Assembly: GCA_003194525.1 (NCBI GenBank)
Contig: NBIV01000095.1
Location: 1 to 64,000 of the forward strand
Reading direction: 5' to 3'
DNA: 64,000 nt
Source of the DNA: Gracilariopsis chorda
Taxonomy: Eukaryota > Rhodophyta > Florideophyceae > Gracilariales > Gracilariaceae
Shown here: in pieces, positions 6,201-53,845 of the stretch
Numbering within the stretch: position 1 is the first letter of the stretch
How the letters are laid out: each line of letters starts with the position of its first letter
Program-made: the position numbers and the translations under genes
The notes under the pieces: model-generated
Database searches by the model: none
What the model was told of the DNA's origin: nothing
What the model saw: the letters and a program-made list of their open reading frames with translations, nothing else

Positions 6201-8861
6201 GAAAGAGCATATGCTCGCACCCGTGAGGTATTGCAGGATATAACTCATTCAACCCTTCACAGATACCGAGAATGGTCAAAAACCTGGCACCGTTTACTAG
6301 ATTTAGATAAGAATTGCAGTCCGCGGCTACAAACTGGACCCAGAATTGGAAATGCTCTAGACTTGGAAGCTCAAGAAAAAGAAATGCCTTCCCCTCCAGC
6401 GAAAAGATCCAAACTAGCAGTGGACTCTCCCAGGCATGGCATATTGGCATCCTCGGTTAAAGCAGAAACACCATGTAGTGCTCCAAGTAGTGCCAATGAT
6501 ATGGTTGTACTCCCAAGCGATATATCTCTCAATTACCACAACATCAAAAGAAGTCAAACACAATCCACCGCTGAAAACGGTGTAACAATCTTCAATGGAG
6601 ATGACCGAAACTACGATCATCTTATTGGCACGTTCTTAAATGATCTCCGACAGATGTTCCAGGATCAGAAGGCCACGTTCCGAACATATACACAATTTCG
6701 AGTAACTATTGCCATTGCGGAACGTCAGAATAACACATTGGTCATAATGCCAACTGGTTCTGGGAAGACGATATGTGTGATGCTTCCGGTTTTCATCGAA
6801 AGATCTCTCAAGTCCACAATTATCATTGTGCCTCTTGTCTCACTCTCTACAGAGTACGTTGAACGGGCGACGAGTTGCAGACTAAGTGTTCAAACTGGGC
6901 TCGGGAGGAGGAACCAAAGTGAGTTCGCTGACATTTACGTCGTGCTCCCGGAGCATGTCCGTGACCCTCGCTTCCGGGAACTCGTGCTCCGACTCACAAA
7001 CCATAAACGTCTGGCTCGGATTGTAGTCGACGAGGCGCATCTGGTCTCTATGTGGTCTTCTCTCCGACAAAGTTTACGGGACATCAAATATGGTCTCATG
7101 TGCATACCAACTTCAATACCTAGAGTATTATTGACAGCAACGCTTCCTCCTCGGGATCGAATGAATCTTTTGCTTCAACACGGAATTCGATCTGCTGTAC
7201 TTTTCAAAGCCCCCACTGTGCGTCGCAACTTGCGTTTTGAAGTGAGAAGCCTCAAGGAGAATATCAGCGAAACCTCCCGAGACCCATCGGGAAGGTTCAG
7301 GAGCACGATTCGAGATCTTCTGCAGGCACTTACAACGGAAATGAAGTTGGAGATGGATGGAGTCTGTACTAATCTCTTAGAATATGGGAATGAGTCTAAA
7401 TACTCTTTTCGAGTTCTGGTGTATGCGATGCAGCGCCATATCGTGGAAAAGGCGTACGAAGTTCTTTACGCTTCGTATGTTGCACTTCCTTCCGGCAGTA
7501 CGTGCAATGGATAACTAAATTACGAAAAAAAGATTTCAGTTATTGCTTACCACGCTGGCATGTCCAAGAATGCACGTATGGCAGCCCACAAGCAGTGGAC
7601 CTCATTTTCATCAACCTCAAACCTCACAAACGACTGTATGCCAGTCATTGACATTGGAATCATGGTGTGTACGTCGGCTTTTGGAGCAGGAGTTGACGCT
7701 CCGAATGTGCGCATCGTTATGCATTTGGGTGGCTCCTCATCACTTGTAGACTACGCGCAAGAAGCGGGTAGAGCGGGCCGTGATGGACTTCTTGCCCGAT
7801 GTGTGGTTCTCTTTTCAAAAAGAGATGCCGACCATCTTACATCAACTCTGGAGAAAGAAGCAACCGAAAGTTTTACAGAAGACGCCTACCGCAAGTTATT
7901 TGGTTGGCTAGAAGCGCGGAATTGGTTTCAGGATTCACAATCATGTCGAAAACACTCCCTGTATGCGGCAATGGATGGAGAAGGCCCGGGAGTCTGCATT
8001 TTCGATCCTGAGTCTGAGCCTTGTGATGTCTGCCTTCATCATTACAATGGGCCTCCGCGTAGAGCTATTAATGCGGAACCAAAAACGCTTGGTACTCAAA
8101 ACCTACTTGAAACATCCCAAAGCCCTGCGATAGATAATTCTCACAAGGTCACTTCCCATCTATTCATCTCGGAGAAGAATAAGAAACACGCAAATCAGGA
8201 CTGCATTATTCAGCGAACTTCGAAACCTGAAGAGGCAGAAAGGGAAAGCTTTGCAATTGCAGATCCTTGCAGCTGGGGATCTGCAGTTCCAACGCCCTCC
8301 CCTCCACAATCAGTAGAGCTGCTAATCCGGGAGGCGGAGTCAGTAGCTCTAGATTTCGAAGGTGACTGTCTGGCTTGCTTGGTTCTGGCTAACAAAAACA
8401 TTAAGGATGGTCATGATTGCTCTCTGTCACGTAGACGGTGCTTTCGATGCCATTCTGATCGCCACAGATTCAGTGCCTGTCGCAACTTTGTTCCGGTGGC
8501 CCAGGGCTGCTGCTACAAATGTGGTATCGGGTATTGTCAAGGATTAAAGGTCCACAGTGAAGCAATGGGATTTGCTTCTACATGCAAACTTGTACGGTTA
8601 AGGGACCTTGGATGGCTGTTATGGAGATGCAGTGAGGGGACGAGAAGGCATATTGTACGGGATCTGTTCTGCGATAATGACAGCGCAGCTTATCACACAA
8701 ACTTGACAAAGCTTTCCACGGCAGGAAGCCAAGATAATGATAGACTCTGGGCTACCTGGCTCTCACGTACTGGTGATACCGTACCGAATCTGCTATGGTT
8801 GGCAAGTTGGTGGAGAAGAAAGTGGGAGGTAAGGATGGATAGCCAACAGAAAGATATATGA
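3238..8861 (+). pseudogene. Telomere-linked helicase: C2H2-like fingers + tyrosine-recombinase-like + RecQ
   Basis: One long gene of about 1870 codons, broken by an in-frame TAG (4432-4434), a 1-nt shift near 5370 and an in-frame TAA (7512-7514). The protein reads through each stop without loss of homology. Two finger-like motifs (Cys-x2-Cys, then His-x4-His) lie near 3556-3620 and 3855-3920. At 5640-6290 there is a tyrosine-recombinase-like core: Arg in SPARAPELARLK, YRHF, then GHTKSTAERAYAR with candidate catalytic His and Tyr. The RecQ helicase follows: Walker A PTGSGKT (~6750), DEAH (~7029), motif III TATLPP, motif IV AYHAGMS, and the QEAGRAGRDG motif (~7760). Cys-rich clusters end the protein. 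Known telomere-linked helicases of fungi sit in the same position. The first in-frame ATG is 3238, but a GTG-led frame opens at 3184, so the start is uncertain. Probably no longer functional. Confidence 0.8.
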
Positions 8862-10060
8862 GATACCCCTACATTGAGCTCTTGGACGCAGACAATCTTT
8901 GGAGCTTTTAGTTTGTTTCAACGCATAAGATGTAGGACACAACGTTAACTTACATTACTTCAATGCAACTACTGTCTACACTTCACCGTGATGGGTATTC
9001 CTTGCATGAATCAAATCAAAGTGAGGAGCCCGGTTCCAACTTTTTGGTAGTGTTACGCAGGCTACACTCGAACGGAGCAATCAGACCGCCATTTCACTGT
9101 ATAGCCTGTAGTCCGCCAAAACATTGTAAAATTTACGGCGTTCCAGTGAGTCCGCAAACTTAACCCAAAATTCAACATACCTTGAATGCAGTGTAGATTT
9201 GAGTGCACACGTCAGTGCACTCGAATCACTGACATGCACCATATGGTGCCAAACCGCTCGATGCTGACAAAGTCATACTAGTAGGTCAGCGCACCTGTCC
9301 GATAGACACTTGTCTATCCGCCCGGATGTAGTGTTGCCAAATGATTATTTCTTGAAGGGATTGAACCTTTCATACACGCGTCAGGAACGGTGTTTTTTAA
9401 TCAAAAGTACGTTTTTGATATCAAAAAGCGGTTCTCTGGAGCTCTGTAGTAAATTAGTCATATTTTACAAGCACATCTCTATCAAACCATCTGTTTGTCT
9501 TATGTTTCTGGTTCTCACCTAGCAAAACCAACAGAAGCTTAGAATTCTTGCTATACAAAAACATGTTGCATCACTTATACAGACTACAAAAGGCAAAAAA
9601 ACGATCAAAATAACAAAAATTAAACGTAAAGTTGATTGTTTTGACCTCATATGAGGTCAGCGGTCCGATAGACACTAGAGAGAGAGAAGAAACCTGGAAC
9701 TATCGTTTAGGATCTCAAAATGCGATTTTTGTTTTTTAGAATGGCTCATTGGGCATAGCCGTGAGTAAACCGCCGGCGCTTGATAGGCATAACATACGTC
9801 CTGCAGTAACCAACCTGCCCCTCTTGCACCCTGAACAAAGCACCATCATCATCATCATCATTGAATACAGCTACCAAATCTTAGAAGAACTGTGCGTGTT
9901 TGCTTCCATGCAAAGCTCCGCTTTTGACTCACCGCTGTCGGTCATTGTTCACCACATTCGGCACCTGAGTCACATTCATTTGATGCCCAATACCAGAACC
10001 TGGTGAGTTGACGATCTTGGATAACAGGAAGGGTAGGACTCCGTCGCGAAGGCTGCCAAA
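8862..10060. other. Non-coding spacer with a cluster of palindromes
   Basis: No gene is seen. It holds perfect palindromes at 9236-9249 (centre CATATG) and 9642-9659 (centre CATATG), a hairpin-forming ATAGACAcTTGTCTAT near 9302-9317, and a repeated block AGGTCAGCG...TCCGATAGACACT at 9283-9310 and 9654-9676. A short (ATC)n run lies near 9845. The pattern looks like remains of a small element, but no complete one can be delimited. Confidence 0.5.
9283..9676. repeat. Direct repeat pair with palindromes at both ends
   Basis: AGGTCAGCG followed within 6 bp by TCCGATAGACACT occurs at 9283-9310, and without the 6-bp spacer at 9654-9676, in the same orientation. The second copy overlaps an 18-bp perfect palindrome (9642-9659). 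The ~370 bp between them are A/T-rich and non-coding. Confidence 0.5.
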
Positions 10061-13000
10061 ATGCCCCCCAACCCTTCGCAGAGAGATGATTCCTTTTCAT
10101 GGGCAATCGAGCAGTTCATTCGAGCCAACCAGCTGATGAATGCAATCGATGCAGACAGAAGACCTGTAATCGAAGAAGCCATTGCATGTTATCGAAACGT
10201 ACTTCAGGTTGTGACACGGGAGGGAAATCCAGAAGCCTGGGCGCTTGTCCAAATGAACCTAGGAGAGGCATTTGCATTTCGCATTGGAGATGATCGGTGC
10301 CGGAATGTGGAGAATGTGATAGAGTGCTATGAGAAAGCACTGGAAGTGTGGACGAAGGAAGCAGCGCCGCTGGATTGGGCAAGGGTGCAAATGACCCTGG
10401 GGAACGCATTGCGATATCGCATTGGAGGTGATCGAAGCCGGAATGTGGAGAATGCGATAGAGTGCTATGGGAAAGCACTAGAATCGTTGACTAAGGAAGC
10501 AGCGCCGCTGGACTGGGCCAAATTGCAAATGAACCTGGGGATCGCATTTACAGATCGCATTGGAGGTGATCGGAACCAGAATGTGGAGAATGGGATAGAG
10601 TGCTATGAGAAAGTACTGGAGGTTTGGACGAAGGACGCCGCGCCGCTGAATTGGGCAACTGTGCAAATGAACCTGGGGAACGCATTGCAAAATCGCATTG
10701 CAGGTAATCGGGGCCGGAATGTGGAGAATGCGATAAAGTGCTATGAGAAAGCACTGGAAGTGTGCACTAAGGAAGCAGCGCCGCTGGATTGGGCAAAAGT
10801 GCAAGTGAACCTGGGGAACGCATTGCGAAATCGCATTGGAGGTAATCGGGGCCGGAATGTGGAGAATGCGATAAAGTGCTATGAGAAAGCACTGGAAGTG
10901 CGGACGAAGGAAGCAACGCCACTGGGCTGGGCAACTGTGCAAATGAACCTGGGGATCGCATTTACAGATCGCATTGGAGGTGATCGGTGCCGGAATGTGG
11001 AGAATGCGATAGAGTGCTGTGGGAAAGCACTGGAAGTGTGGACTAAGGAAGCAGCGCCACTGGATTGGGCAAAAGTGCAAATGAACCTGGGGAGCACATT
11101 GCGAAATCGCATTGGAGGTATTCGGGGCCGGAATGTGGAGAATGCGATAAAGTGCTATGAGAAAGCACTGGAAGTGTGCACTAAGGAAGCAGCGCCGCTG
11201 GATTGGGCAAAAGTGCAAGTGAACCTGGGGAACGCATTGCGAAATCGCATTGGAGGTAATCGGGGCCGGAATGTGGAGAATGCGATAAAGTGCTATGAGT
11301 AAGCACTGGAAGTGCGGACGAAGGAAGCAACGCCACTGGGCTGGGCAACTGTGCAAATGAACCTGGGGATCGCATTTACAGATCGCATTGGAGGTGATCG
11401 GTGCCGGAATGTGGAGAATGCGATAGAGTGCTGTGGGAAAGCACTGGAAGTGTGGACTAAGGAAGCAGCGCCACTGGATTGGGCAAAAGTGCAAATGAAC
11501 CTGGGGAGCACATTGCGAAATCGCATTGGAGGTATTCGGGGCCGGAATGTGGAGAATGCGATAAAGTGCTATGAGAAAGCACTGGAAGTGTGGACTAAGG
11601 AAGCAGCGCTGCTGGATTGGGCAAGAGTGCAATTTAACCTTGGGATGTCTCTTTTTTTCCGATTTTGTGATGGCACTAGTGATGCCGAACATGCACAAGT
11701 GTACCTGCGCAATGCGCTCACGGTTATATCGAAGGAGTCCAATCTGTTGGTTTTCCTGAGAGTGAGCTTTGAAGTGGCCAGAGTTTCGGCCGCAGAAGGA
11801 TCTTCGGATGAGACGAGATCAGCAGCGGGGGATACGCTGAAGGCGCTGGAATACGTCAAGTCTCTTACGGGAGCAGGTTTGTTACATGTACGGACTGTGG
11901 ATGAAGATTACGCTGCTCTGGCGGGCATACTTGCAACGTCGTACTTAAGCGACGGGGATTACCACATGGCTCTGGAGAGGTTTGATCGCTTCAAAGCTTC
12001 TTTGCTATTGGGGTTTCTGTCCGAGGGGGTAGGAATCGCTCGGCGACTGTCTGGAGATTTGGATCGTTTCGATAGTTTACGAAACAGGTATCGCATGCTG
12101 AAGCACAAACTCGACCTGGCCTCTGGAAAGCTGGAATTTGACTTGGTCTTGACCGAGTTGAATGATGTGAAACAGAACATTGATGACATTGTAGCCGTCA
12201 TCAACAAGCAGAACTCCATTACGGATGCGCTACCCGTGTCTTCGAGGGAAATGGTCGAGTTCTTGGACCGAAGCAAAGCAATCGCAATTGTGCTCTTCTT
12301 CGCACCACGGAAAGAAATGATGAAAGTTAGGGATTTTTCAGAGTTCCTACACACGTTCTCCGTTTGGAATGGGGAACTTAGATTACACGAGGGGGAACTG
12401 AGCTACTCTGACAGAAGAATAGGCTTGGATGAAGGGCATGTCCAACAGATAGGGAATTTTGTGTCTAAGATTTTTCGTGCGCACCATTTTGAGAACGCAC
12501 CAACCCGGCTCGTCGTCGTTCGTCATCGTCACCTGCACGCAATTCCTTTCGCTGCGCTCCGGATTCAGATCGATGAGTCTGGAAGGGAGGGCAAATATCT
12601 GGGAGATGTGTTCACCTGAGGTATCTGGATGGTGCCGAGCCTCTCCATTGCGGTACGGGTTGATGAGAGAGGAGTCGCCAGCAAGCCGTTGAAAGAGTGT
12701 GAGATCGTATCCGCAACGTGTCCCACAGTACGTCTGCGACCTCAGCACGAAGAAGTGATGCAAAAGATTGGGTTCGGCGGTAGATCACATGTACACATCG
12801 CTCATCCATGCCCACCGCATAGCGAAATCATGTCGCGCCGCGAGTTGAAGACTTGCGATATTTTGCACTTGACATGCCACGGCACCTTTGCAGGAGGAAC
12901 AGAAACTGCAGCAGCGCACCTAAACCCCTCAGAAGTAGTGAATGCAACAGGACTGAGTTTTGGTACCGGAGACGAAGCGCTGTTAAACATGGCTGATATT

Positions 13001-18788: not shown

Positions 18789-19067
18789 AGTGCGTTATTC
18801 CTGATTAGCATTTTGTGTCGCACACAAAGTCCATGAAAACATTGCCAGCAATGATACCACATATTAGGAAGAGAGCATTTGTGTACTCGCATTTTTCATG
18901 CGAACACGGATTAGAACACGCTCAACTGCCGAGGGCACAGATTAGCAAGCTTTCAAAATCGGGGCAATTCAGATCGTGCGACGGCTCACGATGCAGACTT
19001 GACGGCTTTCTGCACCTTAACAGCACATGTTTAGCCGTTACCGTCCCCTCTTCTTTACATCGTCGCC

Positions 19068-20234
19068 ATGCTCCGCATTCTCCTCCTTTGCCTCTCCAAA
19101 AGCAATCGACTGCGCCAAATCGACAACGACCCCTTCCGCCACCACATCTCGGCAACTGCGCGACGCCGTCGCGACAGACGTATCCCTCGGGTAGCGCTAC
19201 AGGATTCACATTCATCTCCGTTTATGACTCTATTCCTGTCGGGTAATGATCAAGCTCTTATCACACTCACTGGTTTCGATCATAATGCCTTCGATTATAT
19301 TCTAAACAAGTTCGCGCCACTTTACGGTATATACTCCCCGTACTCTATCACTGGGATGGTAACTCGCCTCCAGCGCCCCGCACGAAGACCGAGATCGCTG
19401 ACGGCTTTGCAATGTCTCGGTCTGGTGCTGAGTTGGGGCAGGACGCGAGGGTCTACCATGGTCTTGTGTATGTTGTTCGGCATATCAGCATCGGTATGCT
19501 CGCTGTTTCTTCGTTTCGGGAGGCGACTTGTGTTGCGGTCATTGAAGGATGATGATAACGCAGCTGTCAGAATGCCAACAGCTGAGGAAATAGAGGCCTT
19601 TCAAAATGCATTCTCTGCCAAATACTCTACCCTAGGTGATGTTTATGCTGTAGCAGATGGTTTGAAGCTTTACTTGGAGCAATCTGGGGACTGCGTAATT
19701 CAGAATATGTTCTATAATGGATGGAAGCATGATCATTACGTCGGCAACGTCTTCGTGTTTGCTCCAAATGGATGCATCATTGCATGCGCAACAAACGCTC
19801 CAGGAGCCATGCATGACTCTACTATAGCTGAATGGGGAAACATTTATTCGAAACTAGAGGCCTGCTACGAAAACTACGAAGGGAGATGTGTCGTGGACTC
19901 CGCTTTTTGTAAGGGACAGTACCCATTTCTTATTAAGTCTGCACAGGATCATTTCAGCTCGGCTGTTTACGCTTCAGATGTCGTGCGTATGCGTCAAGCA
20001 ACGTCTGCAAGGCAGGCATCCAAATGGGGAATGCGTGGATTTCAGTGAACTTTTCCTCGCCTCAAGGACCGAATGCCGTACGAGGAGAGAGGCGAACGTA
20101 AGCTAATTTTACTTTCAGTGGTTCGGCTATTCAACCTTCGGGCAAGACTGGTGGGGATTAATCAAATCTTATCATCTTATATGCCACACATGGGCGTAGA
20201 AGCAAACCATCTATTGTTCTCTATGAATCCGTAA
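19068..20234 (+). pseudogene. PIF/Harbinger DDE transposase, copy A (inactivated)
   Basis: About 388 codons from ATG 19068. The DDE core shows the first Asp in VADGLKLYLEQ and the second in VVDSAFCKG. The third acidic residue should lie in ASEWGM, as copy B has it, but here the codon at 20022-20024 is AAA (Lys). An in-frame TGA (20046-20048) follows, where copy B reads Gly. The conserved frame goes on to TAA 20232-20234. The enzyme would cut and paste the element with its partner. With the catalytic Glu gone and the tail cut, this copy should be inactive. An overlapping frame at 18815-19246 is a shadow. Confidence 0.88.
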
Positions 20235-20240
20235 AACAAG

Positions 20241-21668
20241 CTACTTCTTGACCAGCGACATCATCAACATCTCCATCATACGTTCATGTCGCTTGGTCTC
20301 TTCCTGCCGAATTGCTCGCTCCTCTGCCCGCTGCGCCGCTTTTTCTTTCCTCTCTTCCTCTCGTTCGGCCTCCCGTCGAAGGCGCTCTTCACGCTGTTCC
20401 TGTCTCCATTTCTTTTCTTCCTCACGCTCTATAGATCTCATCGCCTTGTCGTCGTCCCGCCTCGCCTGATCCTGCATCATCTGTAGCTTGTAAAGCTCAA
20501 TCAGGTCAGCACTCGAGCTTTTTGGCGTCTCTTTTGCCCCCCTCTTACGCACGATAGGGCGTGCACTGGAAGGGCTCGGTGATTTTAGGGGGGTCTTCTC
20601 GCGCGCGCCGTCTGCTGAATGCAGTACTTCTGCGCCGCTAGGGCCGTCATCGAAAGGATTAGTCTCCGGCTCCTCGTCGCCTGAATCAAATGCACAAAGG
20701 ATATCATCCGAATCTTCACCTTCCCCGATGTCCGCACGTTCTGTCATACTGTAACGAATACGTTTAGCTTTATCAACATCTAGAGGAATGGTAGGATCCC
20801 CAGTTGGGATCCTGCGGCGATGAAGAGAGGCAAATTTACGCTTCAAGCTGTCCACGGTGCGCTTATACTCGGGGTATCTTTCCGAAGGAAGCCGGACGAT
20901 ATGGTCCCATTCCTCCTTAGAGAGCGGTAAATGTTCTTCTAGAAGCTCCAGTAAATTGTCTACTTCCTGCCTTGAAAATCCCGAGCCGCGCCCCCAACTC
21001 TTCTCGATCGTCTTCCTCCTCTTACGAATTCCACCCACTACCCTCGAAGCCGACTTTCGGCCACCTCTCTGCTGCCGTGCAGCAGCATGAGAGGGTACAG
21101 TTCTCGTCGCTGCGGCCTCGGAGAAAGTGGTGGAGAGGTTCCGGCGCGTTGGTGGGGATGTGCTAGTTGCAGCGGAATCGGGCGGAAAAGACGGCAATGC
21201 ACCTTGCGCGTGAGGCATAGGCGTCTCGGAGGAAGGCTGGGATGGCGATGCGGAGCGAACTTGCGGCAGAGTCGTGACCGAAGGGCTTCGGTGACGTGAC
21301 AGAGAAGCTTGTGTTCTCCCGGGGTTGCATTCCAAAGAGCGTTGTACGGAGAGCGGAGCCGATATGAAAGGAGGAGAGGGAAGTGGTGGGGGCTCAGGGA
21401 AGCTCTCCGAAGGATCGTCGAGCGGGGGTTGTGCGTAGGCGGTGTCTTGACCGGTGGGTGGGGCAGGGGCAAAATCCGCTTGGCCGGAAGAAGTCATTCT
21501 GCACGTGCAAGGAGGTGCCCGGCGGGAGGTAGTCGGTGTTGGAAGGGGGGTAGGCGAAGGTTGGTGGACACAGCTGGCACAAAAAGTGGCGAGTGGGAAT
21601 TTGTGTACAGCACAAATCAACCTCGCACGTGGGCGAGCGCCAACCACGGAGAAAAAATGCGCATACAT
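20241..21668 (-). CDS. Harbinger partner protein, SANT/Myb-like with charged coiled coil
   Basis: 475 residues, uninterrupted. Residues ~50-220 are Pro/Ser-rich and disordered. A basic patch (GGRKSASRVVGGIRKRRKT) precedes a SANT/Myb-like block with FSRQEVDNLLELLEEHLPL, EEWDHIV and RTVDSLKRKFASLH, ending in the PTGDP signature often found after this domain. Residues ~385-470 form an extreme Glu/Arg coiled coil. In PIF/Harbinger elements this protein binds DNA and brings the transposase to the nucleus and ends. It converges on the transposase with 6 bp between stop codons. It is intact here, whereas in copy B it is broken. Confidence 0.85.
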   Translation of the reverse strand: MYAHFFSVVGARPRARLICAVHKFPLATFCASCVHQPSPTPLPTPTTSRRAPPCTCRMTSSGQADFAPAPPTGQDTAYAQPPLDDPSESFPEPPPLPSPPFISAPLSVQRSLECNPGRTQASLSRHRSPSVTTLPQVRSASPSQPSSETPMPHAQGALPSFPPDSAATSTSPPTRRNLSTTFSEAAATRTVPSHAAARQQRGGRKSASRVVGGIRKRRKTIEKSWGRGSGFSRQEVDNLLELLEEHLPLSKEEWDHIVRLPSERYPEYKRTVDSLKRKFASLHRRRIPTGDPTIPLDVDKAKRIRYSMTERADIGEGEDSDDILCAFDSGDEEPETNPFDDGPSGAEVLHSADGAREKTPLKSPSPSSARPIVRKRGAKETPKSSSADLIELYKLQMMQDQARRDDDKAMRSIEREEEKKWRQEQREERLRREAEREEERKEKAAQRAEERAIRQEETKRHERMMEMLMMSLVKK

Positions 21669-21818
21669 ATTTGGGGTGATTTTGGCGCAAACAGCCCTCG
21701 AAATGCCGAAATGTGCAGCAGTAAATTGGAATTTGTGTAATCAGGAAGCACCCAGTAACCTCGACAGAATATTTGCGTACCAAATGGTATTATTCTAGTG
21801 GCCATATAGTTTCGGCAA

Positions 21819-21850
21819 TAGAGGATTTACGCCGTACAAATTCTCGTACA
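21819..21850 (+). repeat. Left terminal inverted repeat of the 8.6-kb element
   Basis: Begins TAGAGGATTTACGCCGTA. It is followed to about 21955 by four or five TACGAGAATT-type motifs in both orientations. Its partner is 30371-30402. Confidence 0.78.
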
Positions 21851-22011
21851 ATTATGGTATACACCAGGGACAGGATGCACACTTGTCATTTGTGGCTACG
21901 AAACGTACGAGAATTTCATACGAATTCTCGTACAAACCACCATCCATACGAGTAGCTGATGGTATAACTCTTTCGCAGACGACGCGCTACGTTTGAACGG
22001 CTCTCTGACCA

Positions 22012-22930
22012 TGAGCACGTCCGGGCATTCCGAAAAATCGTCGAAAGACGCCAAGGATATGCAGACTACAACAGGATTGCCCGGAAAAAACCAAACCATT
22101 CTCTTCAACTACCAAAAGAGTCTGCCTTATCGTCCACTACGCAAAAATTGAAGCGATTTCGGTTTACTCAAGCATATGACATTTTTCTTCTTCAAGCGGT
22201 GCGAGAATATGACGCGCATGTTCCAGAATGGGGCATAACTGACGTAATATTGATAAAGTGTTGAATACTTTTCTTGCAGTAGTTCCTCAGGCAGTGTTTT
22301 CTTATATGAACCTTCCATCACGGAAGACGCTATTGGATCGATTTAAAAGGCTTTTGGCTATACAAAAAGCGGACAATAGGCGTAATGTGTCCGCAACTGG
22401 AATTGTGGAGGAGTAGGGTGAAAAGAAAGTGCTGCTAGATGATCTTATTCTTGAAATGGACGAAAAAAGCAGAAGCGGTGAAGGTAGAAAAGGAAGTGCT
22501 TAGAGCACATGAGAAAAAACTAATTGATTCCAGTGAAGAAATACGCAAGAAGGCTATGAAACGCAAGACAATTGCAGTGCAAAGTGATGGAGGTACTGAT
22601 ATCTCGAAATCGCCAGGCAGGAAACGGGCTCGACGTTTGGAGGCTTCTAATTCTGTTGACGATATGACATTTTTTCTTCTCGAGCAATCGAAAGAACTTC
22701 AACTATTTGAACAGAAGCGGTTCGACATGGAACACGAACGCTTGAAGATGGAAAGAGAAAGAAACGAGAAAGATCGGCAACATTTTGAGGCTTCGAGGAG
22801 AGAGGCGGACAGTGGATTGGAGCTTGAGAGGAAAAGATTTGAAATGGAAAAGGAAGAGCGTGCTTTAGCACTTGCAGAGAGGAAACAGATGATTGGTTTG
22901 ATTGAAGCTTTGACAAAGAAGCTTCAGTGA
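22012..22930 (+). pseudogene. Myb-like/coiled-coil partner gene of the 8.6-kb element
   Basis: From ATG 22012 the coding sequence passes through several frames. A Myb-like piece (FRFTQAYDIFLLQAVREYDAH, about 22155-22230) and a following helix piece (MNLPSRKTLLDRFKRLL, about 22305-22355) are separated by a stretch that may contain a short GT-AG intron (about 22242-22277). An in-frame TAG comes next, then the long frame 22439-22930, which is a strongly charged coiled coil (HEKKLIDSSEEIRKKAMKRK, then repeated Glu/Arg heptads). This organisation is typical of the second gene of PIF/Harbinger elements. Frame breaks suggest decay, though the intron call could remove one of them. Confidence 0.6.
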
Positions 22931-23045
22931 GGTAAACTGGATATGATGGTACACTAATTGGTTCGTTTACCCCAGGTGGTACTTCACAGGTTGCTCTTAT
23001 TTCGTCCGTGCGATTTGGCAGTTAGAACGGTTTGTTTGTTCATGC

Positions 23046-24582
23046 TTGGTGCGATCGCTATACATGCGTCTGTTTACGTGTTTTCAAGATGACCGTCTGA
23101 CTGAGTGCTATATTGCAAGCGTTTTTCCTCTTTTTTCTCGGCGCCTCGAACGAGCCTTTGGATTGGTGAAAGATATGATTCAGAAAGACGTAATCCATCC
23201 CAACTCTCATACCTACGACAATTTGATACAAGGTTGTGGCCGTTGGGGAGAGCTGGATGCTGCGTTGCGCTTGTTTCACTGAATGCGAATAGCTGGGGTT
23301 GCGCCTACCATTGTCACATACTCTGTAGCAATTGACGCCTGTGCAAAATGCGGTGCGGCGGTTGCAGTGGATCAAGCTTTAGATCTTATAACTGAAGTGA
23401 AACGGAGTGGTCTGGAACCAAACCTCGTTACGTACAATTCTCTCATTACACATGTGCGAGAGCTAAGCGATCCCACCTTGCTTTTAAAGTACTTCAGTTT
23501 ATACGAGAAGACAGAATTCTCCCGGATATCCTAACCCTGTGCTCTCTGGCTGATGCATGCGGTCGGAGCGGAGATGCTATTCGCGCCTTCGAGATCATCG
23601 AACAACTGGTAATGGAGTTTCTATCAATTAAGCCCAATGTGCCTGTTTACAATGCGCTTATACATGCATGTTTCAAGGCGAACGATTTCGAAAGTATGAA
23701 GATTGCCTTTGATGCTTTGAAACGTGAGCGTTTGCAGCCAAACGTTGTTACCTATTCAACTCTTATTAGTGCGTACACAGCGAAGAGTCACTTCGAAGAT
23801 GTCCTATACTATCTGAACAAAATGCAAGAAAGTGGGATGTGTCCTAATGAGCTAACTTTCACTTCTGTGATTTCAGGATATGGACGTTCTGGAAATGTTG
23901 ATCAGGCCATGGAAATGCTTGAGAAAGCACGGAAAATTTATAGAAAGCCGGACGAAGAACTTTAACTGCGGCGATCGTTGCCGCAATCGGTGGCGATCGC
24001 AAGGAAACTGTGCTGAAATTGGTAAAAGAGATGAGTCTTGCTGGATATTGTGTTCCGTATGTTTTGAACAAGATGATTCGGAAAGCTGGTGATCCAGAAC
24101 GAAGTGGAGCTGAATTGCGAAACATGCTATCTGTTATGGAAGCATTGAATGTCCGCCCTCAGCGTGTAGCCAAAGAAACGATAGTCAAAGCCTACGCAGA
24201 AGAAGGGGATGTGGTGTCTGCTTTCGGGGTCTTGCCGGATATGCAGCGTTTGGGATACCCTCCGAATCATCAGACATACCGCAGTCTTATACATGAGTGT
24301 ACAATTAGCAAGGATCCCACTCACATAAGAGAAGCAAGGGCCTTGTTTCGGAAAATCCGAGCCAGTATCGAGGATGGCCACGCGTTTCTTCGGTCGCACC
24401 GATCGAGGGACCTTTACGATGCAGTGGTTCGCGACGTTGACAAAATCTCTGATCCCTCGGAACGAGCAAGGCTACTAACGGGCATGCTAGAATCCATGGC
24501 GAAGGATTGTGGGAAAGTTTATGAGTATTTACTAGCGGAGCGAGTTTTTCCAGAGATACTGAAGGACTTGTGCTTCTCGTGA
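23046..24582 (+). pseudogene. Pentatricopeptide-repeat (PPR) protein remnant
   Basis: About 510 codons of consecutive ~35-residue PPR units (HPNSHTYDNLIQGCGRWG, PNLVTYNSLI, PNVVTYSTLISAYTAKS, PNELTFTSVISGYGRSGN). These organelle RNA-binding proteins act in mitochondria or plastids. The frame is broken by an in-frame TGA at 23280-23282, in the conserved LFHEM position, and by single-base shifts near 23485 and 23945. No targeting peptide is visible, so the 5' end seems missing; the first unit starts almost at once. It lies between the partner gene and other fragments inside a TIR-bounded element, so it is likely captured or trapped host sequence. Confidence 0.85.
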
Positions 24583-25252
24583 GTAAACTTTCGAGACTTC
24601 GGACACCATTGAACCTCGAGTCCCTGTGTGTAATAGTTCTTTAACTAGTCCATCGTCTTCCAATGTCAGCAGTGGTCTTGGTCAGCAGTTCGTACACACA
24701 CGAAACAATGGAGGGCCCAAGGGATCCTTTGATCGCAGTGCTAGCGACACAATATGTACGATCGTATTCGTTCAAGTCTGAATGATTCTTTTCTGTTCGA
24801 CACTTTTCGGGTGTTTGATAGAGTTGGGAAACTAAACTACATTGAATTTTAGTGTTCTTGTAATATGACGACTTTTCAAGACCCTACGAAAACTATGAGG
24901 CCACTAAGGATGATAGAATCGCACATCGAATAGTCGCGAAAGGGATTGCGGCAAAACTATCTTGAAGGGAAGTTGCAGAACAACACGGACTTGGATTCGG
25001 AGCAAAGATATTGTCTATACACACATGGGTTGAAGGTCTAAGATCGCCGATGGAAACCTCCTCTTACCACCCAGTTGCTTCGGTATCCGATACAAGTTTA
25101 GCAATTCTGCACAAAATGAGGTGATGGGGACACAGATAACCGTTGAGGGAGATGAAGAGCAAGGCATGTTTAGTTAAAATAAAACTGAGCTACAGCGTTC
25201 CACGAATGACGTGAAGAGCCTCCTTTTTTGACCCAGAGCTGTTAGAGATTTG
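24583..25252. other. No gene seen
   Basis: A/T-rich, no frame above 60 codons with recognisable content. It lies between the PPR remnant and the minus-strand fragments inside the 8.6-kb element. Confidence 0.5.
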
Positions 25253-26004
25253 CTACAATCCGTAGTCAGGTGGTGCAACAGGGTTGACTGAGGCTATCAG
25301 TGAAGGATAATTCAGATTCGCACTGTTGTAGATGCCAGCAAAGTCTTCATTGATGAGATGGTCAGGCATGTCAATGTTGACATCGTCGATAGGTCTCAGT
25401 CCCATTTCCTTAATCGGACCATCCCCGACAATGTCGACAGGGTGCAAACTGGAATAGTTCATGGAGATAGGATCACCTTCTGCAAGAGAAAATGCAAAAC
25501 CAAGGTCGGCAAGTGGGGCGTTGTCGAGCCCATAGTCACTCATCGTGCTCTCAAAGAGGAAGGGAGGAATGAGGTCTTCTTCAAGTGAAGTAACGGTATC
25601 GCTCTTTTGACATTTGTTAGCAGAACGTCCCCCTCTCCTTTCCTGCTCCCCTGCTCCAGCTCCGACTCGTCTTCGTCCTCCATCATTTACTCTGGGCGAG
25701 TAAATGAGGAGAGAGTATTCACGACACAATCATGTTGCGTCTCAAGAACAGATAAAGCGATGTTGGAGGTGGACGGTGTGCCAACGAAGTCAGCGACTAG
25801 CGCGGTATCAGTTGAAAAATTGGCAGACTCCTCTGGATGCAAACACAAATACGAAGAAACAAGCTGTGAAGTAGAACAGGAGTCTGGAACAGCAGTATGA
25901 GTATCGCCGAGGACAAGTGGTGTTTGCGGTTGCTGCAACGCAACAGGTTGAGAAGCAAGTAGTTTGCGAGGGGAGCCAAGTAAGGAGGTGGCAGAGGCAT
26001 TCAT
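25253..26004 (-). other. Unrecognised minus-strand frames
   Basis: Two minus-strand frames, 25687-26004 (105 codons, Ser/Thr/Gln/Pro-rich) and 25253-25729 (158 codons, acidic, with a DNAPLADLGFAFSLAEGDP segment), look like parts of one disordered, acidic protein with a frame break near 25700. The composition would suit a transcription-factor activation region, but no DNA-binding domain is visible. They may continue the host gene fragment upstream on this strand, or be a fourth fragment. Confidence 0.3.
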
Positions 26005-26138
26005 GCTCTTCAGCGTGGCCTGACATGCTGCTGAGGACGGTGGGTCGTCATTTTGTAGCGGGTTGGTCGTCGGACTTTGAGGTTACACTTCGCGATGGCG
26101 TTGAAAGCTTGCGAAGAGTAGAAGTGAGCGAGCGATGA

Positions 26139-27065
26139 TTATCGGATCCTGACAAAACATTCCTGCGCATCCTCAGCCCGCCATTTCCACTGCGTGAAGC
26201 GGGTTTCCATTTCGTCCTCGCTAGCACCAGCTTCAAGATCCGCTGAATCGTCATCTACGACGATGGGACGAAAGTAGTCATACTTTTCCGGAAGAAGCTC
26301 TTTCGGTATAAACCAGCACGAGCCAAATTTGTACTGGGACAAAAGAATAGTAGCCTGTGTGCTTAGCCATACAACCAGAGCAATGGCCAATGCAGGTTGC
26401 GGCTGCACGTGCAGAACGTTGTAAGGGCAGCCCCAGAAGTGCTATGGGATAGCAAGACGAGTGACGGTTGTACTGATAATATACGAGGGAAGCAGAGGAA
26501 AACGAAGGTCTTCGACAGCATTGAGTACTATTTGTGGTACCCAGAACGAAAAAAAGGCAAACAAAAAGAACCGCATATGGTTTTGGAGCTGATAAAGAAG
26601 AAGAATACCAATCAACAATGAGCCGTAAAATCGGGAATATAGCGTGGAGAGTTCTCAGCGCATCGCCTCCCAGCCTTCAGAGAAACCAGAAGGGTGGTGT
26701 GCCTTCCATATGAGCAACATTCATCTCATTAAAAAGATGGAGAAGCAGATGAACTTGAAGAATGCAGCAGTAGCAAACACATTGAAGAGCGGCTGCACAG
26801 CGATGCCCATAGTGAGATGTACAAGGCACAGGTAAGAGTCTGCAACAGCTTGCAAGCCCACGGTCATTAAAGAGACACGACGAGTGCCAGCTTGGGTGCT
26901 TGTCATTTCCATCTGTCTGATGAGAACAATAACTTGTATAAAGGTGACGACGGTGACAGGCAGGGTGTAGTTAACAGCCTTGCAAAAAAGATTTACCGTG
27001 TCCAGGGTGGACAGAACGAGGGATATTCTGCTTTGACCTTGCTTGGATACAAAAACACCTTTCAT
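26139..27065 (-). pseudogene. FLY1/Tul1-like transmembrane E3 ubiquitin ligase fragment, RING missing
   Basis: One frame of ~309 codons with in-frame stops at 26655-26657 (TGA) and 26442-26444 (TAG). It matches the membrane region of the plant FLY1/FLY2 and fungal Tul1/Dsc1 family: several hydrophobic helices with FIQVIVLIRQMEMTSTQAG, FNVFATAAFFKFICFSIF, SRFYGSLLIG, TVTRLAIP, FGSCWFIPKELLPEKYDYFR. These proteins are Golgi/endosome membrane E3 ligases whose C-terminal RING carries out transfer. Here the sequence runs to DAQECFVRI, where the RING should begin, and then stops; no Cys/His ladder is found downstream. The N-terminal lumenal domain is also absent. It is a double truncation inside the 8.6-kb element. 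Confidence 0.82.
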
Positions 27066-27416
27066 CTCTACAAACTCATCAGTGGGCTCCAGTTAACTGC
27101 CCGACAAAACTCCAGGAACGTTGGGATCGAGGCGCTGTGTGTCGCTTTCGCTAGGGGTCTCATCGGTGACCTGTCCCTCGGTTACATGAAAAGTGGCATG
27201 AAAGGCGCACTGCGCGGCAATGATGGATCGAGGGATGGCACGTTGCGCTCGGTACTGTTTGCGATGCTTTTGAAATCTTGGAGATACGGTCTTGAGGAAG
27301 CGTTCTTCCGTAGTATTGAGGTTGGTAAATGTTAATCCACTTCTCTTTCTGCGTGCTGCTGGACATATTCCAAGCGCTCCTTCGCGCCTCTGCCTAGCTC
27401 TACTCGTTTAAAAAAG

Positions 27417-29130
27417 TTAGGCAGTCATGAGAGTCATTAGTCTCCCAAATGATTCTTCTTTGAGGATCGAAATAAATGGAGGGGCTAGGGCAGCCATGGC
27501 AGAAATAGAAATGTTTGGTAAAGCCCCTAGCCGTTGACAAGCTCCTTCGAATAGCTTGATATTGCTCCGTACAATCCCTAATTCCTTAGCAAAGTCCTGT
27601 TCATCCCGACTTTCTGCAGGTGCGACGCGAATTATGTCCTTGACTTCAATCATGCCAGGATGAAGCTGATCCAGAAGGATACAGAGTACAGCACAGTCCC
27701 TGAAGCTTTCAGTGAAGTCTACGACCTTAATTCGGTGAATAACACATACGGTTGCACACCACTGAAGAAGCTTTCGTATACAATCTTTGTCTGTGCACTG
27801 ATAGATAACCAATCTGCTTGGACTCTTGATCGTTGGGCTTAATTCTCGAAATTTCTCCGGTGAGCTACACTACATAGCATTCGCCGTTCGGGCATGGAAT
27901 TCGTACTGTGCTGCACTGAGACTTTCGTCTAACAGTGAGTTGTCCAGAAGTTTGATTTCGATCCAGAGCTCAGTGATCTGCCACAGAAGGGCCACGGTCT
28001 CAGGTATGTTACCGTCTATGATTTCTCTTGCGGTCGCCTTCCATTGAACTTTAGCACGTAGTCTATCTGCAGCGTATTTGCTTATCGTATCCAACGCAAT
28101 CATTATGTTAAATGAGTGCTTTTTGTGTCTAGTCGCATCACTGAGCCGGCTACCATAATTGTATTTCACCTGTTGCAGAGGAAGAAGGTCACCAGTAAGC
28201 AATGAAGCAAGCCTGCAAAAGCGGATTCCCTCTCTTAAATCTGTGCCAAGATCTCGGACTGCAAAATTACTGATTCGATCCCACCACGGACAGTCATATT
28301 CTAGTCTCTATCCAAGGTCTCCAAGAAAACGATTCAGACTTTCAGGAGTTTGCAAGCATATTTGGCTCAGTTTATCAACGACTTCTTAAGAATTGTGAAC
28401 AGATGAGTCCGGTTTGAACAATGGAAAAGGAAGGTTGTTGACAACATCTGTGTCTTGTCCGGTATGATCCAACAACATGATGACCAACAGGGTGCGATAG
28501 GGAAGAAGTCCATTCTGCTTGACGGAGTCCATATTAGAAGACGGAGTGAAACTGTGCTTGGGCTAGTAGTGGGAAACTTTGATGCAACAGGATTCTCTGT
28601 GGTAAAATGGTTGCGCAGAATGTAGTCGACAAGTTTCTGTTGTAAGACTGCCACGTCTATTCTGTTGTTCGGCGTGTTTTGAGCTTGCAGTAGTACGTCG
28701 TCAATCTGGAGAGCGAAATTGGTGTGCAAGATAAGGCTCAGGCCCAACAGAAGCCAAGTAGAATTATACGAAATGTGAGCAGAGAAACTAACTGCTCAAA
28801 CTTAGGTTGCTCTGTACCAATAGAAACAGCGGCACTGAAGGAAATGTTGGCTTTCTTGATGTGGTTGCCAAAGCGCAGTACCTCAGCGTTGAATGCCGGG
28901 CCCCTGTAGAAGCACAACACAGCTGTGTATTGTGCAATGAAGACATCTGATGAAGCGAGGTTTTGAGTTGGGAAATAGGATAAAGATGAAGAAAGATCAC
29001 CAAGCTCGTGGTTTAGCCAAGCAGATAGGTCGATATATCGGTGTGTCCTTATATGGTCATATATTGCAGTACAAATCACACTCTGGTGCCTCACAATCAA
29101 AATACCGGCTAACCTGTCCTCCTTTTTCAA
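27417..29130 (-). pseudogene. ASPM-like (abnormal spindle) calponin-homology region fragment
   Basis: Read on the minus strand, 28560 to 27417 is nearly one frame with in-frame stops (near 28388, near 28311 and near 27880). The clearest part is a calponin-homology domain: SNFAVRDLGTDLREGIRFCR (~28260), LASLLTGD, then REIIDGNIPETVALLWQI (~27990-28040). A second CH-like piece follows (VVDFTESFRDCAVLCILLDQLHP, ~27680-27730). The preceding YRTLLVIMLLDHT segment fits the helices before the CH domains of ASPM proteins, which focus spindle poles. Frames 28367-29130 upstream include a frame shift near 28520 and probably belong to it. No IQ repeats are seen, so this is an internal fragment. Confidence 0.7.
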
Positions 29131-29248
29131 TACAGGTCTTGACGTTCAGCAGCAATGCGGATGCAATATACAAAAGAGCGACCGGAAATCGGCGAACGCA
29201 AAGCAGACGTGAGAAACCGTTTCGAACCCACATTTGTTTTAGGTCTTT

Positions 29249-30212
29249 TTAGTTCCATTCCACTGCAGTTCGAATTGCATTCATTGAACAGTTGTACTCA
29301 AGCTGTATGGCAGTAGCGCAACTTCTCTGAAAAGAAGTCTGTAACCATGGTCGCAGCACGTACGCAGGATCACCGTAAACATAGTACTGCAACCCGTTCA
29401 CAATCATACACCTTTCCATAACGGCTTCGATCCCGCTTCTTCTCAGGAGTGTAAGATCGTGTCGGCGTCCCACTTCAGGGCCAAACATATGAAAAATCAG
29501 GCCATCAGGGGTAGAAATGGCCTGATACTTCAAACAATGCTGCCGCGTGTGCCCAGAAAAAACAAGACCTTTGGTTGCTCCCCTCTCCTTCTGGACGACA
29601 TATACTTACCTTTGTGCTGTCAATGAACCCTACACATTTCTCTGGAGGGGCTCGACGTCTTTGAATTGCGTCTGCGTAAATTGTCGCACGAGATATCAGA
29701 AGCTTCTGCTGCAAAGTGGTTACCAGTCTACCTTTTAGGTTCACAAATCGCTCAACTGCTTCCCAGAATACTTCACTGATGTGTGTGAATCTCATCCCAA
29801 ATATTAGCTCCATATCATACCATGTATGAGCAGAAGACAATCGTTTCAAGACAATACAGCAGGCTGTAGTTGATTCACAATAGTAGCGATTGCGATGTGC
29901 ATGACACAGATCCCACCCGATAACCACAGAAATTCTACCAATATCGTTACGGCGAAATCTGTAGTCATGTAGACACTATTCCTCAGAGAAGATGTTAAGG
30001 TTGAAATTGTGATTTCGAATGCGGTAGCATCGAAGTTCAAGGTTTTGAAGATCATATTTTGCAACTTGCACGCGACGCCAAAGTGCTAGCATCAACGATG
30101 GTTCGGCTTCAGAATTAAGAGCTAGTTGAAACAGCGTTTTGCGCCGTAAAAAACGAGAACGAGCACGCCCAATTGAGTAGTCTTCTTGGCGGACCATCAT
30201 GTAAAAGTGCAA
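29249..30212 (-). pseudogene. Harbinger-type DDE transposase of the 8.6-kb element
   Basis: About 320 codons. The N-terminal helical part (30212 to ~29990) ends in an in-frame TAG near 29976. The catalytic part follows in the same frame: FGMRFTHISEVFWEAVERF, CVGFIDSTKVSICRP (first Asp), then a 1-nt shift in a T run near 29560, then FHMFGPEVGRRHDLTLL, GDPAYVLRPWL (second Asp) and an FNEC-like segment in a shifted frame (Glu). This is the DDE_Tnp_4 (PIF/Harbinger) type. It sits ~190 bp from the right TIR and faces the partner gene across 6 kb of host-like sequence. Inactive as read. Confidence 0.8.
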
Positions 30213-30370
30213 TGGAATCTTGGCTCATGTTCCAAACTGGGTGGTCTGTGGACAACCGCATGATTCTTATCCTACGAACTATACCATAAGTTATTTTGCG
30301 TAAGGTGCAAACACAATGTTTTGTTCCGCAAAATCTCGTAGCGTTCGTGTAAGTCGTGGCTACGAGATTT

Positions 30371-30402
30371 GATACGAGATTTTCTACGGCGTTAATCCTC
30401 TA
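30371..30402 (-). repeat. Right terminal inverted repeat of the 8.6-kb element
   Basis: The reverse complement begins TAGAGGATTAACGCCGTA and matches the left TIR at 27 of 32 positions. Two or three further TACGAGATTT motifs lie just inside (about 30331-30385). Confidence 0.78.
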
Positions 30403-31047
30403 ATGACCGCCAGTCGCTACTTTTCCATGCTTCCACATGTACGACAATTCGAAACACCGAGCTCCGTCAAAGATTAGCGAACAAGCGCTCCTCGCTTGCA
30501 CTCACGCCAACATCCCTCCGTTTCAGTCATCAAACTTTCGCTTTGTTGAAAGCACACTGGGACAAACGGTACTGAAGCGCTCGACCTTTTGATAGCTACA
30601 ACTCTTAATAATTTAACCATCACAGTCCAACTCGAACGGCCACCTGCAACACACCTTCCATTCTGGTCGCGTGCCTCGCCGCAAACGCCGTATAGTCAAG
30701 GCTCAAGACCTTCTCCGTCATAGACCGCACTCTCAACACGTCCTGTAACGCGGATTGTTCACGTGAGCAGCGATCTCCATCACCTCCCATACTGACTTGA
30801 GTGACAGATATGTGTAGACAAGGTCAGTAACCAGTACAGGGTGCGGTGACGTAGCCAGCAATGCAGCCGAAATACAAACAGGCTCCAGTGCGGCCTGGCA
30901 GTCCGCTTTGTACACATCCACAATATCTTGGGTTTGGCGCAGCTTGCAGACCCTCTGTTGCTGTGCTAAGCCAAAGATGGTGGCGAAGGATGATTCTTGT
31001 AGGGATATCTAACAAGTAGTGTTTCCATTCGCATTGCCACTCACCCC
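30403..31047. other. No gene seen
   Basis: Only short unsupported frames (for example 30733-30921 on the minus strand). Confidence 0.5.
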
Positions 31048-31633
31048 ATGGGCAACTTTGTCAGCTTTGTCAAGCACGCTTTGTTCTCCGCCGTCGCGGA
31101 GAAGATCGACCACCTTGCCCCCACCGCGTCCGAACAAGATGTCTCAGAGTGGTGCTGCTGCTTCAAGCAGCTACTGTAGTGTCGCAGATCGGCTTCGAGC
31201 GCGCCTTCAAGCAGTACTTGCTGGACATCTTGCAGATCGCCGACAAGCACGCTGCGCTGCTGCCCTCTGCTGTCGCCGATTGGCTCGAAGCAGACCCGAC
31301 CACCGCCTCCCTCGTCGAGCAGCATCGTGCCGACACGCTTTCACAGCAGGACCTGCGCGCCGGGCGCCTTCCAGACGGGTCGTCCGTGTTCCACGATGCC
31401 GACGCCGATGGTGTCGACGCCGATGGTGTGCACGGAGTCGTGGAGAAGGATGGTCGCGCCGTCAAGGTGTTCCGCGGTGAGCCGTTCCGCAACTAGGGCG
31501 ACACGCTATCCTTCAGGATGTCGTACAGCTTCGTGCCGACCACGCAGGTGGGCGTCATCAACGTCGTCAAGTTTGCTCTCGCCGAGCGGCGCCGTGTTTG
31601 CGTATCTGGCAGCCGCCACAGTTGGTCGCCAGT
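31048..31633 (+). pseudogene. FAD-linked oxidase (VAO-type) N-terminal fragment
   Basis: The likely start is ATG 31048 (MGNFVSFVKHALFSAV...). The frame shifts near 31145 and continues 31149-31496, then an in-frame TAG (31494-31496) stands where the family has the Trp of RNWGDTLSF. After it comes FVPTTQVGVINVVKFALAE, then RRVCVSGSRHSWSPVG, the FAD-binding signature of the vanillyl-alcohol-oxidase fold (sugar-lactone oxidases and relatives). Homology stops right after that motif, exactly where a short telomere-like sequence begins. The catalytic and substrate domains are missing. The region is visibly more GC-rich than its surroundings. The identity of the substrate cannot be told. Confidence 0.72.
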
Positions 31634-53516: not shown

Positions 53517-53845
53517 ATTTGAGGTGATTTTGGCGCGAACAGCCCTCGAAATGCCGAAATGTGCAGCAGTAAATTGGAATTTGTGTACTCAGGAAGCACC
53601 CAATATCTTCGAGACATCAACAAATATAGAGCTTTGTTGGGTGATATACAGTCCCGGAGAAAACAAGAATGTGACGCTCGAGTATCATTCCGCCGTTAAT
53701 TCTGCTGTGGACAGTTTTCTCTGCTCAGTTATAGACTCTCTGATGTCATAATCCCCCCACTTATACTAAAGCGGAAGTTTGTCTGTCTGTCTGTCTGTGT
53801 GTCAGCTAACGCCCACTCATTGGCTGAAAAATCGGCAAGGAGGCT

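Follow-up and report, generated by a model that had tools for sequence, protein, structure and literature searches.

Capture of host sequence by transposons of the PIF/Harbinger type has been described in plants and animals. Coding PIF elements of grapevine, termed Pifvine-3, contain as much as 3.5 kb of DNA from the host (PMC2528002), and the C. elegans Harbinger element Turmoil-1 holds two gene pieces in inverted repeats (PMC2572040). The route by which cut-and-paste transposons pick up pieces of host genes is unsettled, with gap filling, end bypass and fusion under discussion (PMC8277862, PMC8903248). Here, a 64,000-nucleotide stretch of the red alga Gracilariopsis chorda (assembly GCA_003194525.1, contig NBIV01000095.1, positions 1 to 64,000; hereafter the window) was analyzed, which contains an 8.6-kb Harbinger-like element filled with pieces of host genes. 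The window corresponds to C95:1-64000 (G000) of the 91.3-Mb assembly in 1081 contigs, and all other C-numbers denote contigs of this assembly. The element is very probably a PIF/Harbinger-type cut-and-paste transposon in which the space between two convergent genes was overwritten several times by unlinked host DNA.

When all 8590 bases were used as a genome query, at least three further full-length copies were recovered at 96% identity (C34:214163-222741, C267:19434-28015 and C268:33532-42112), each embedded in different flanks and bearing its own target site duplication (TSD). The best 40 of 96 candidates were scored in this search and copy numbers are lower bounds. Since copies of the whole unit occur at other sites with their own flanks and TSDs, the ends and the gene pieces between them evidently form one mobile unit. 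By sequence comparison, an 8.6-kb unit that is bounded by terminal inverted repeats (TIRs) and TSDs and carries DNA of three host loci is documented in at least four copies at different sites. A segmental duplication or a chance neighborhood of host genes was considered as an alternative and is excluded by the whole-unit copies, the TSDs and the empty site described below.

The inverted-repeat arms of the window copy (21816-21848 and 30373-30405) are 33 nt long and 88% complementary, which makes them the longest inverted pair reported for positions 21000-31500; counted over the first 29 nt, 26 positions match between the inverted ends. A line-up of 13 retrieved copies places the element proper at 21820-30401, starting with AGAGG and ending with CCTCT. 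The subterminal motif TCTCGTA/TACGAGA is present in the left 160 bp of 12 of the 13 copies and in the right 160 bp of 12 of them, and a TIR pattern allowing up to two mismatches yielded 58 genome matches compared to 0 for the reversed pattern. The TSDs take the form ANT (AAT, AGT or ACT; AAT in the window copy), and identical 3-bp TSDs were found for 10 of the 13 copies (6 computed, 4 by eye). The exceptions are C3, which matches two bases further out, C99, which is mismatched, and C47, in which the match breaks off on the 3' side before the TIR. The joined flanks of the window copy (110 + 110 nt with one AAT) match C58:125318-125495 over query positions 43-220 at 96% identity, unbroken across the join at 110, and this stretch, known by its coordinates only, is read as an empty site in a paralogous stretch. 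For the C3 copy, no empty site was found among the best 40 of 157 candidates scored; apart from the flanks themselves, the hits were confined to the leftmost 77-86 bp of the query and to one 38-bp segment within them.

An initial annotation, made from the letters of the window alone, had proposed one element with matching TIRs and subterminal motifs at 21821-30400. Both kinds of signal are borne out, and the span is one base too narrow on each side. The search for an empty site that it suggested yielded the C58 locus. Its own alternative, that the two ends belong to different insertions, fails on the matching TSDs, this empty site and the further whole copies. The features of the window copy are as follows.

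21816..23111, plus strand: 5' core of the element, common to sisters with other cargo types (about query positions q1-1294/1296)
21817..21819, no strand: left target site duplication AAT (TSD comparison; empty site on C58)
21820..21848, plus strand: left TIR, beginning AGAGGATTTACGCCGTA (inverted-repeat search, TIR pattern, copy line-up)
21968..22930, plus strand: partner (second) gene, split into two frames in the window copy
23112..23139, no strand: about 28 bp shared by C317, in line with the beginning of the C79 cargo there, a likely remnant of an earlier C79 capture
23140..26209, no strand: 3.07 kb captured from C1:25854-28927, 95% identical, about 0.67 kb of intergenic DNA included
23140..24584, plus strand: 3' part of a PPR gene, with two frameshifting gaps and two stops in the window copy
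25253..26209, minus strand: 3' part of a convergent R2R3-MYB gene, with two frameshifting gaps and two stops in the window copy
26208..27328, minus strand: C79-derived piece, 97% identical, about codons 157-530 of an E3 ligase gene, with four stops and no frameshift
27329..27332, no strand: 4-nt filler between the C79 and C87 pieces (by eye; same junction in C317)
27333..29032, minus strand: C87-derived piece, 95% identical, about codons 123-690 of a calponin-homology (CH) domain frame, with three frameshifting gaps and three stops
29033..30405, minus strand: 3' core of the element, common to sister elements
29060..30224, minus strand: PIF/Harbinger transposase (DDE_Tnp_4 by Pfam), frameshifted in the window copy
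30373..30401, minus strand: right TIR (inverted-repeat search, TIR pattern, copy line-up)
30402..30404, no strand: right target site duplication AAT (TSD comparison)

The cargo was traced to three unlinked host loci on C1, C79 and C87, which supply pieces of four genes. Pfam searches of the window returned a PPR match (E = 3e-30), a DUF2921 match (4.8e-26) and a CH match (2.8e-5); the last scores 24.7 bits in the window piece, just under the Pfam cut-off of 26, and 56.4 bits in the parent. The PPR parent is a 901-aa open reading frame (ORF) on C1 (L050:7189-4484, minus strand), convergent with the 503-aa ORF of the R2R3-MYB parent (L050:2300-3811, plus strand). The C79 parent (C79:209193-213313) is a 591-aa frame for an E3 ligase with DUF2921 and RING-H2 domains, from which a piece without the RING was captured, and the C87 parent (C87:67802-72502) is a frame of at least 1689 codons with CH domains. 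At all three loci the parent frames stay open well past the captured part. The PPR remnant and the ligase fragment (FLY1-like in the initial annotation) are thereby substantiated. Its ASPM-like fragment does come from a gene with CH domains, which is as far as the label can be followed. Its count of three host genes holds for the source loci; the gene pieces number four, the R2R3-MYB tail on the minus strand (about 25253-26209) having been overlooked.

The parent loci were also used as genome queries. C1:23000-32000 gave six matches, namely itself, the four elements of the window's kind (type A below) and an unrelated 198-bp stretch at 68%. The 4.1-kb C79 stretch likewise gave six, namely itself, the four type A elements and the sister element on C317. 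The C87 stretch gave 35: its own locus, copies bounded by ends of this family, and C45 and C78:232846-233735, two older sites of which the structure was seen in part. Only the captured piece of each of C1:23000-32000, C79:209193-213313 and C87:67802-72502 matches the elements. No place outside the elements with the genes together was found by these queries; the case that the initial annotation had named as refuting it, the three genes in the same order at a locus without the TIRs, was thus not encountered. The annotation had also proposed to distinguish capture from DNA and RNA by introns. This test is blind, because the parents are single open frames without introns over the captured parts. 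The intergenic DNA is informative instead: since the stretch between the convergent 3' ends of the PPR and MYB genes was captured as well, the C1 piece appears to have been copied as DNA and not as spliced RNA.

The retrieved copies with the family's ends differ in what they carry, and the 13 of them fall into five cargo types (A, 4; B, 4; C, 3; D, 1; E, 1), which answers the suggestion that elements with such TIRs and different cargo should be sought. Type A consists of the window copy, C34, C267 and C268. Type B (C48, C49, C156 and C78) measures 9.8-11 kb, type C (C1:208069-217105, C3:505297-514333 and C47) about 9 kb, with 13.7 kb between the left and right TIR in C47, type D (C317) 7.6 kb and type E (C99) 9.9 kb. 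Across types A-C the left 1165 bp are 91.8-99.7% identical and the right 1374 bp 94.4-99.4%; types D and E are more distant. In types B and E, the 5' core seems to extend to about q1606, and an STT3 piece (Pfam 1.6e-19 and 1.7e-13) is present that is contiguous with C137:139920-141156 at 92% identity. Type B cargo continues beyond STT3 with 6.5 kb contiguous with C87:72361-78887 (96%), a stretch that takes in a further part of the CH-domain gene as well as a frame with an ERCC4 domain (Pfam 2.6e-7); a 360-aa frame in this cargo from the C87 neighborhood (L031:5636-6715) gave no convincing Pfam match. Type C cargo contains a 1140-aa frame that is open in C1, has two stops in C3 and two stops and three frameshifting gaps in C47. 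Its one match to VPS13_M (E = 0.01, 14.5 bits) is far below the Pfam cut-off of 50.

The junctions allow the order of the captures to be read. The C79-C87 junction with its 4-nt filler is common to the window copy and C317, and the two pieces would have been joined first in a C317-like element. The 28-bp stretch at 23112-23139 is identical to C79 at 23 of 28 positions; the next best place there reaches 17 and the other two parent stretches reach at most 18, and the stretch is absent from the core of types B and E. The C1 piece begins directly after 23139, and C79 sequence resumes at 26208. Because a C79 remnant lies to the left and a C79 piece to the right of the C1 piece, the latter most likely displaced about 1.4 kb of C79 DNA from an older capture resembling that in C317, so that most of the C79 piece's left part gave way to PPR/MYB sequence. 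The other junctions share 0-5 nt as read by eye. Next to the transposase, 225 bp or more of the CH-gene piece have been retained in each of the five types, so the C87 capture is probably ancestral to all 13 copies, and the STT3 piece appears to be old as well.

Older and longer members of the family were also seen. The family's ends lie 18-22 kb apart in C182, C86 and C45, and C182:45790-57434 and C86:167717-178675 represent about 11 kb inside two old, long copies. Older relatives at C126:100439-103371 and C45:230896-249286 already hold STT3 and C87-derived pieces, so the first captures are judged to be older than the recent copies. Among the type B copies, C78:153337-163124 lacks 1.17 kb found in C48, C49, C156 and the C87 parent. 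The edges of this gap resemble a deletion between short repeats with a common CTGGCA, and a nested TIR element as the cause was rejected on these deletion-like edges, which carry no TIRs. Mismatch-free TIR pairs about 3.07 kb apart were observed at C5:660814-663887, C13:6417-9490 and C22:445672-448746. Each holds a 0.7-kb stretch 79-80% like type B cargo, and all are absent from the scored core matches (best 40 of 96); they are perhaps a shorter family with the same ends.

Ends and cargo were found to have different histories. The type A copies C34 and C267 resemble the type C copy on C1 in their ends (left 1165 bp 99.4-99.5% and right 1374 bp 98.8-98.9% identical) more than they resemble the window copy and C268, which share their cargo (left 95.6-97.9%, right 96.4-96.6%). 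The cargo of C34 and C268 is mostly 97-99% alike in 500-column windows. The 225-bp CH-gene remnant of C34 is 99.6% identical to that of C1, compared to 91.6% for the window copy and 92.4% for C268. Starred branches in the left- and right-end trees force at least two changes for type A; the right-end tree comprises 11 of the 13 copies, without C317 and C99. Shuffled labels were as clustered as type A in 173 of 500 cases for the left tree and in 51 of 500 for the right, so the trees show hardly any link between cargo type and ends. The discordance is most simply read as exchange between elements, on the basis of few copies.

A partner gene at one end and a transposase at the other had been recognized by the initial annotation, and both were recovered in the present analysis. 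Pfam identifies the transposase as DDE_Tnp_4, with 3.5e-14 for the window piece and 5.5e-18 for the 388-aa frame of C48, and C48, C1 and C317 each have an uninterrupted 388-aa frame for it. The transposase contains GFID, GDPAY and AVEW in that order, which we take to be the DDE triad motifs. The partner gene is open at 306 aa in C34, C267, C48, C49 and C3, and a second gene of 306-323 aa is conserved in four aligned copies. The second gene of PIF/Harbinger elements typically has a Myb/SANT-like domain; in the three copies scanned, Pfam reported no Myb domain up to E = 10. All 13 retrieved copies keep transposase-region sequence. Both element genes are open in one of the 13, C48 (partner 306 aa, transposase 388 aa), a count that used a motif filter which diverged frames such as the open transposase of C317 can escape. 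A C48-type copy is potentially an autonomous Harbinger element with cargo. The window copy is defective and not autonomous by itself, since both its element genes are broken; the autonomous status implied by the initial annotation does not apply to it.

Stops occur in every captured piece tested (PPR in four copies, MYB in four, E3 ligase in five and CH gene in five), and frameshifting gaps in 4/4 PPR, 4/4 MYB, 4/5 CH-gene and 1/5 E3 pieces; maintenance of the cargo as working genes was considered and is not supported in view of these stops. Nonsynonymous to synonymous (N:S) differences between the window pieces and their parents amount to 40:24 for PPR, 34:16 for MYB, 32:6 for the E3 ligase and 54:34 for the CH gene. 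Relative to a no-selection ratio of about 3.2-3.3, the E3 piece lies above and the PPR, MYB and CH pieces lie below, a deficit that could result from constraint on the parent branch or from mutation bias.

How the cargo arrived can be modeled as repair. A double-strand break in the element, by excision or otherwise, may have been filled by copying an ectopic host template, and the gap may have been closed with little or no homology. The finished chimeras would have been multiplied by the transposase, acting in trans where a copy's own gene is dead, and the discordant ends and cargo suggest that segments were exchanged between elements by conversion or template switching. Capture and multiplication are evident from the sequences, and the repair route is what we infer from them. 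This route agrees with the gap-filling model discussed for Pack-MULEs and Pack-TIRs (PMC8277862) and with the abortive gap repair named for a PIF family (PMC6327408).

Other routes were weighed against the same evidence. Independent entry of the host pieces one by one, through nested transposons or segmental duplications, between ends unrelated to each other would account for sharply bounded pieces from different source loci, and is nevertheless highly unlikely given the matching outer TSDs, the empty site and the at least three whole copies elsewhere; the C79 sequence on both sides of the C1 piece, with about 1.4 kb missing that C317 keeps, points to replacement. Fusion of two adjacent elements, whose outer TIRs take up the host DNA between them, is a published acquisition route with a maize Pack-PIF family as example (PMC8903248) and could fit an early, long capture around the C87 locus. 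The window cargo, however, comes from three contigs, the parent stretches on C1, C79 and C87 match the elements over the captured piece only, and TIR matches with up to two mismatches are absent from C79 and C87 and about 175-180 kb off at the nearest on C1 (decayed relicts being possible), so that fusion is considered unlikely. Reverse transcription of spliced or unspliced transcripts into the element is the least probable of these routes. The single open frames of the parents are compatible with it, intron absence being uninformative there, but the C1 piece runs through intergenic DNA across two convergent genes. The C87 piece in C317, C99, C86 and C182 begins 76 bp upstream of the stop-to-stop frame, which also speaks against an RNA origin and could be 5' untranslated region.

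Several points weigh against repeated overwriting by gap repair as set out here. The genome searches scored part of the candidates (40 of 96), all evidence comes from one assembly without reads, and the longest copies (C182, C86 and C45) are known without their interiors. The source of type C cargo was not found in the genome search, the best match being 76% on C260. The 28-bp remnant agrees with C79 at only 23 of 28 positions, although C317 does not differ from C79 over the 56 bp that follow. Resolution of the end-trees is low, stars marking 2 of 10 inner branches in one tree and 3 of 8 in the other. The N:S ratios of transposase and partner gene between copies (compared with C48, with C47 left out of the transposase count) are near the neutral expectation, with no visible selection for activity. 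The 0-5 nt of junction homology were read by eye, and end joining of broken pieces leaves the same marks; breaks caused by excision are likewise indistinguishable from other breaks, and most single-copy animal Pack-TIRs have been argued to derive from transposition-independent breaks (PMC8277862).

A broader version of the repeated-overwriting model is put forward tentatively, at somewhat less than an even chance. The family's ends would be a reusable shuttle and the middle a slot that is changed by gap-repair capture, overwriting, extension from the parent and swaps between sisters, with the unit still mobile. Homology, once present, would let the parent locus extend the cargo, and ends and cargo would evolve separately.

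The surroundings of the element within the window are also repetitive in part. Directly to its left, at 19035-21740, a second, different Harbinger-like pair was observed, one frame matching DDE_Tnp_4 (8.2e-10) and the other, 499 aa long, matching DUF6818 (1.4e-7). The end of this pair is judged to be repetitive, because nine other places, window 53558-53612 among them, contain the opening 43-55 bp of the left-flank query. The window begins at or near an apparent chromosome end, with a telomere-like array of about 101 units of AAAACCCCTA at 1-1010, about 22 kb from the element. The subterminal part at about 2500-8900 shows a RecQ-like helicase resemblance beside a recombinase-like frame (translation by eye) and is subtelomeric, and ten 138-bp tandem units at 10250-11645 are coding-like, with the appearance of a TPR-like repeat gene.

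With respect to classification, the element has the DDE_Tnp_4-type transposase and the 3-bp TSD of PIF/Harbinger transposons, and its 33-nt arms fall within the TIR length of about 25-50 bp given in PMC2572040. Its ANT target sites depart from the TTA/TAA preference, which is usual and not strict, TTA/TAA making up 52% of PIF TSDs in rice and 81% in maize (PMC8903248). As in Pack-TYPE elements, host gene DNA lies between TIRs with the parents elsewhere (for type C without a parent found); unlike them, the family is not a non-autonomous one without transposase. The presence of parents, an intermediate-like sister (C317), a likely overwriting footprint and several cargoes in one genome makes the order of events readable and the models comparable. 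It also documents, for a host outside the land plants, a Harbinger family that combines open element genes with cargo from several genes. One phycobilisome-family match (28.1 bits, cut-off 22.2) is a hint of the red-algal nature of this host.

The Pack-PIF and Pack-TYPE elements of rice and maize resemble the present family in carrying gene pieces between PIF TIRs that were multiplied by transposition, one maize family holding two genes; they are non-autonomous by definition, and the example family averages about 0.5 kb with pieces of 163 bp and 58 bp (PMC8903248). Pack-MULEs and animal Pack-TIRs share unlinked parents, junction microhomology, a gap-filling model and later multiplication (PMC8277862, PMC6431247). 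Pack-MULEs are mostly 1-2 kb, with none above 7 kb (PMC6431247), and Harbinger is not named in the main text of PMC8277862 (0 occurrences). The transposase of MULEs is another one than that of Harbinger. A literature search over titles and abstract openings, with subscription journals mostly outside it, found no red-algal Harbinger with captured genes, no serial cargo replacement in a Harbinger, and no Harbinger family in which related ends bear several kinds of cargo, drawn from four or more host loci and subject to overwriting and exchange. Starships and Helitrons are mobile units with cargo genes whose enzymes differ from those of Harbinger; unlike cargo kept as genes in these, the tested captured pieces of the Harbinger family contain stops in every copy.

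The closest likenesses remain Turmoil-1 and Pifvine-3. Turmoil-1 combines a Harbinger transposase with pieces of two host coding sequences, which lie in 760-bp inverted repeats, and it is known from one complete copy and eight fragments; cargo variants are not mentioned in the available parts of its description (PMC2572040). Pifvine-3 elements are coding PIF/Harbinger transposons with ORF1 and transposase that took up host exons and introns and are sometimes multi-copy; their length is about 5.8-6.7 kb, and the extra DNA resides in a long 5' region (PMC2528002). In the red-algal family, by contrast, the cargo lies between convergent genes, derives from three loci per unit, and is apparently serially overwritten and different among sisters with related ends, in retrieved copies of 7.6-11 kb. 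The initial annotation had regarded gene-fragment capture as unusual for autonomous PIF/Harbinger elements. Host-sequence capture is already known from Pifvine-3, Turmoil-1 and Pack-PIF elements, and what appears to be new is a multi-cargo family whose middle part has probably been overwritten and exchanged.

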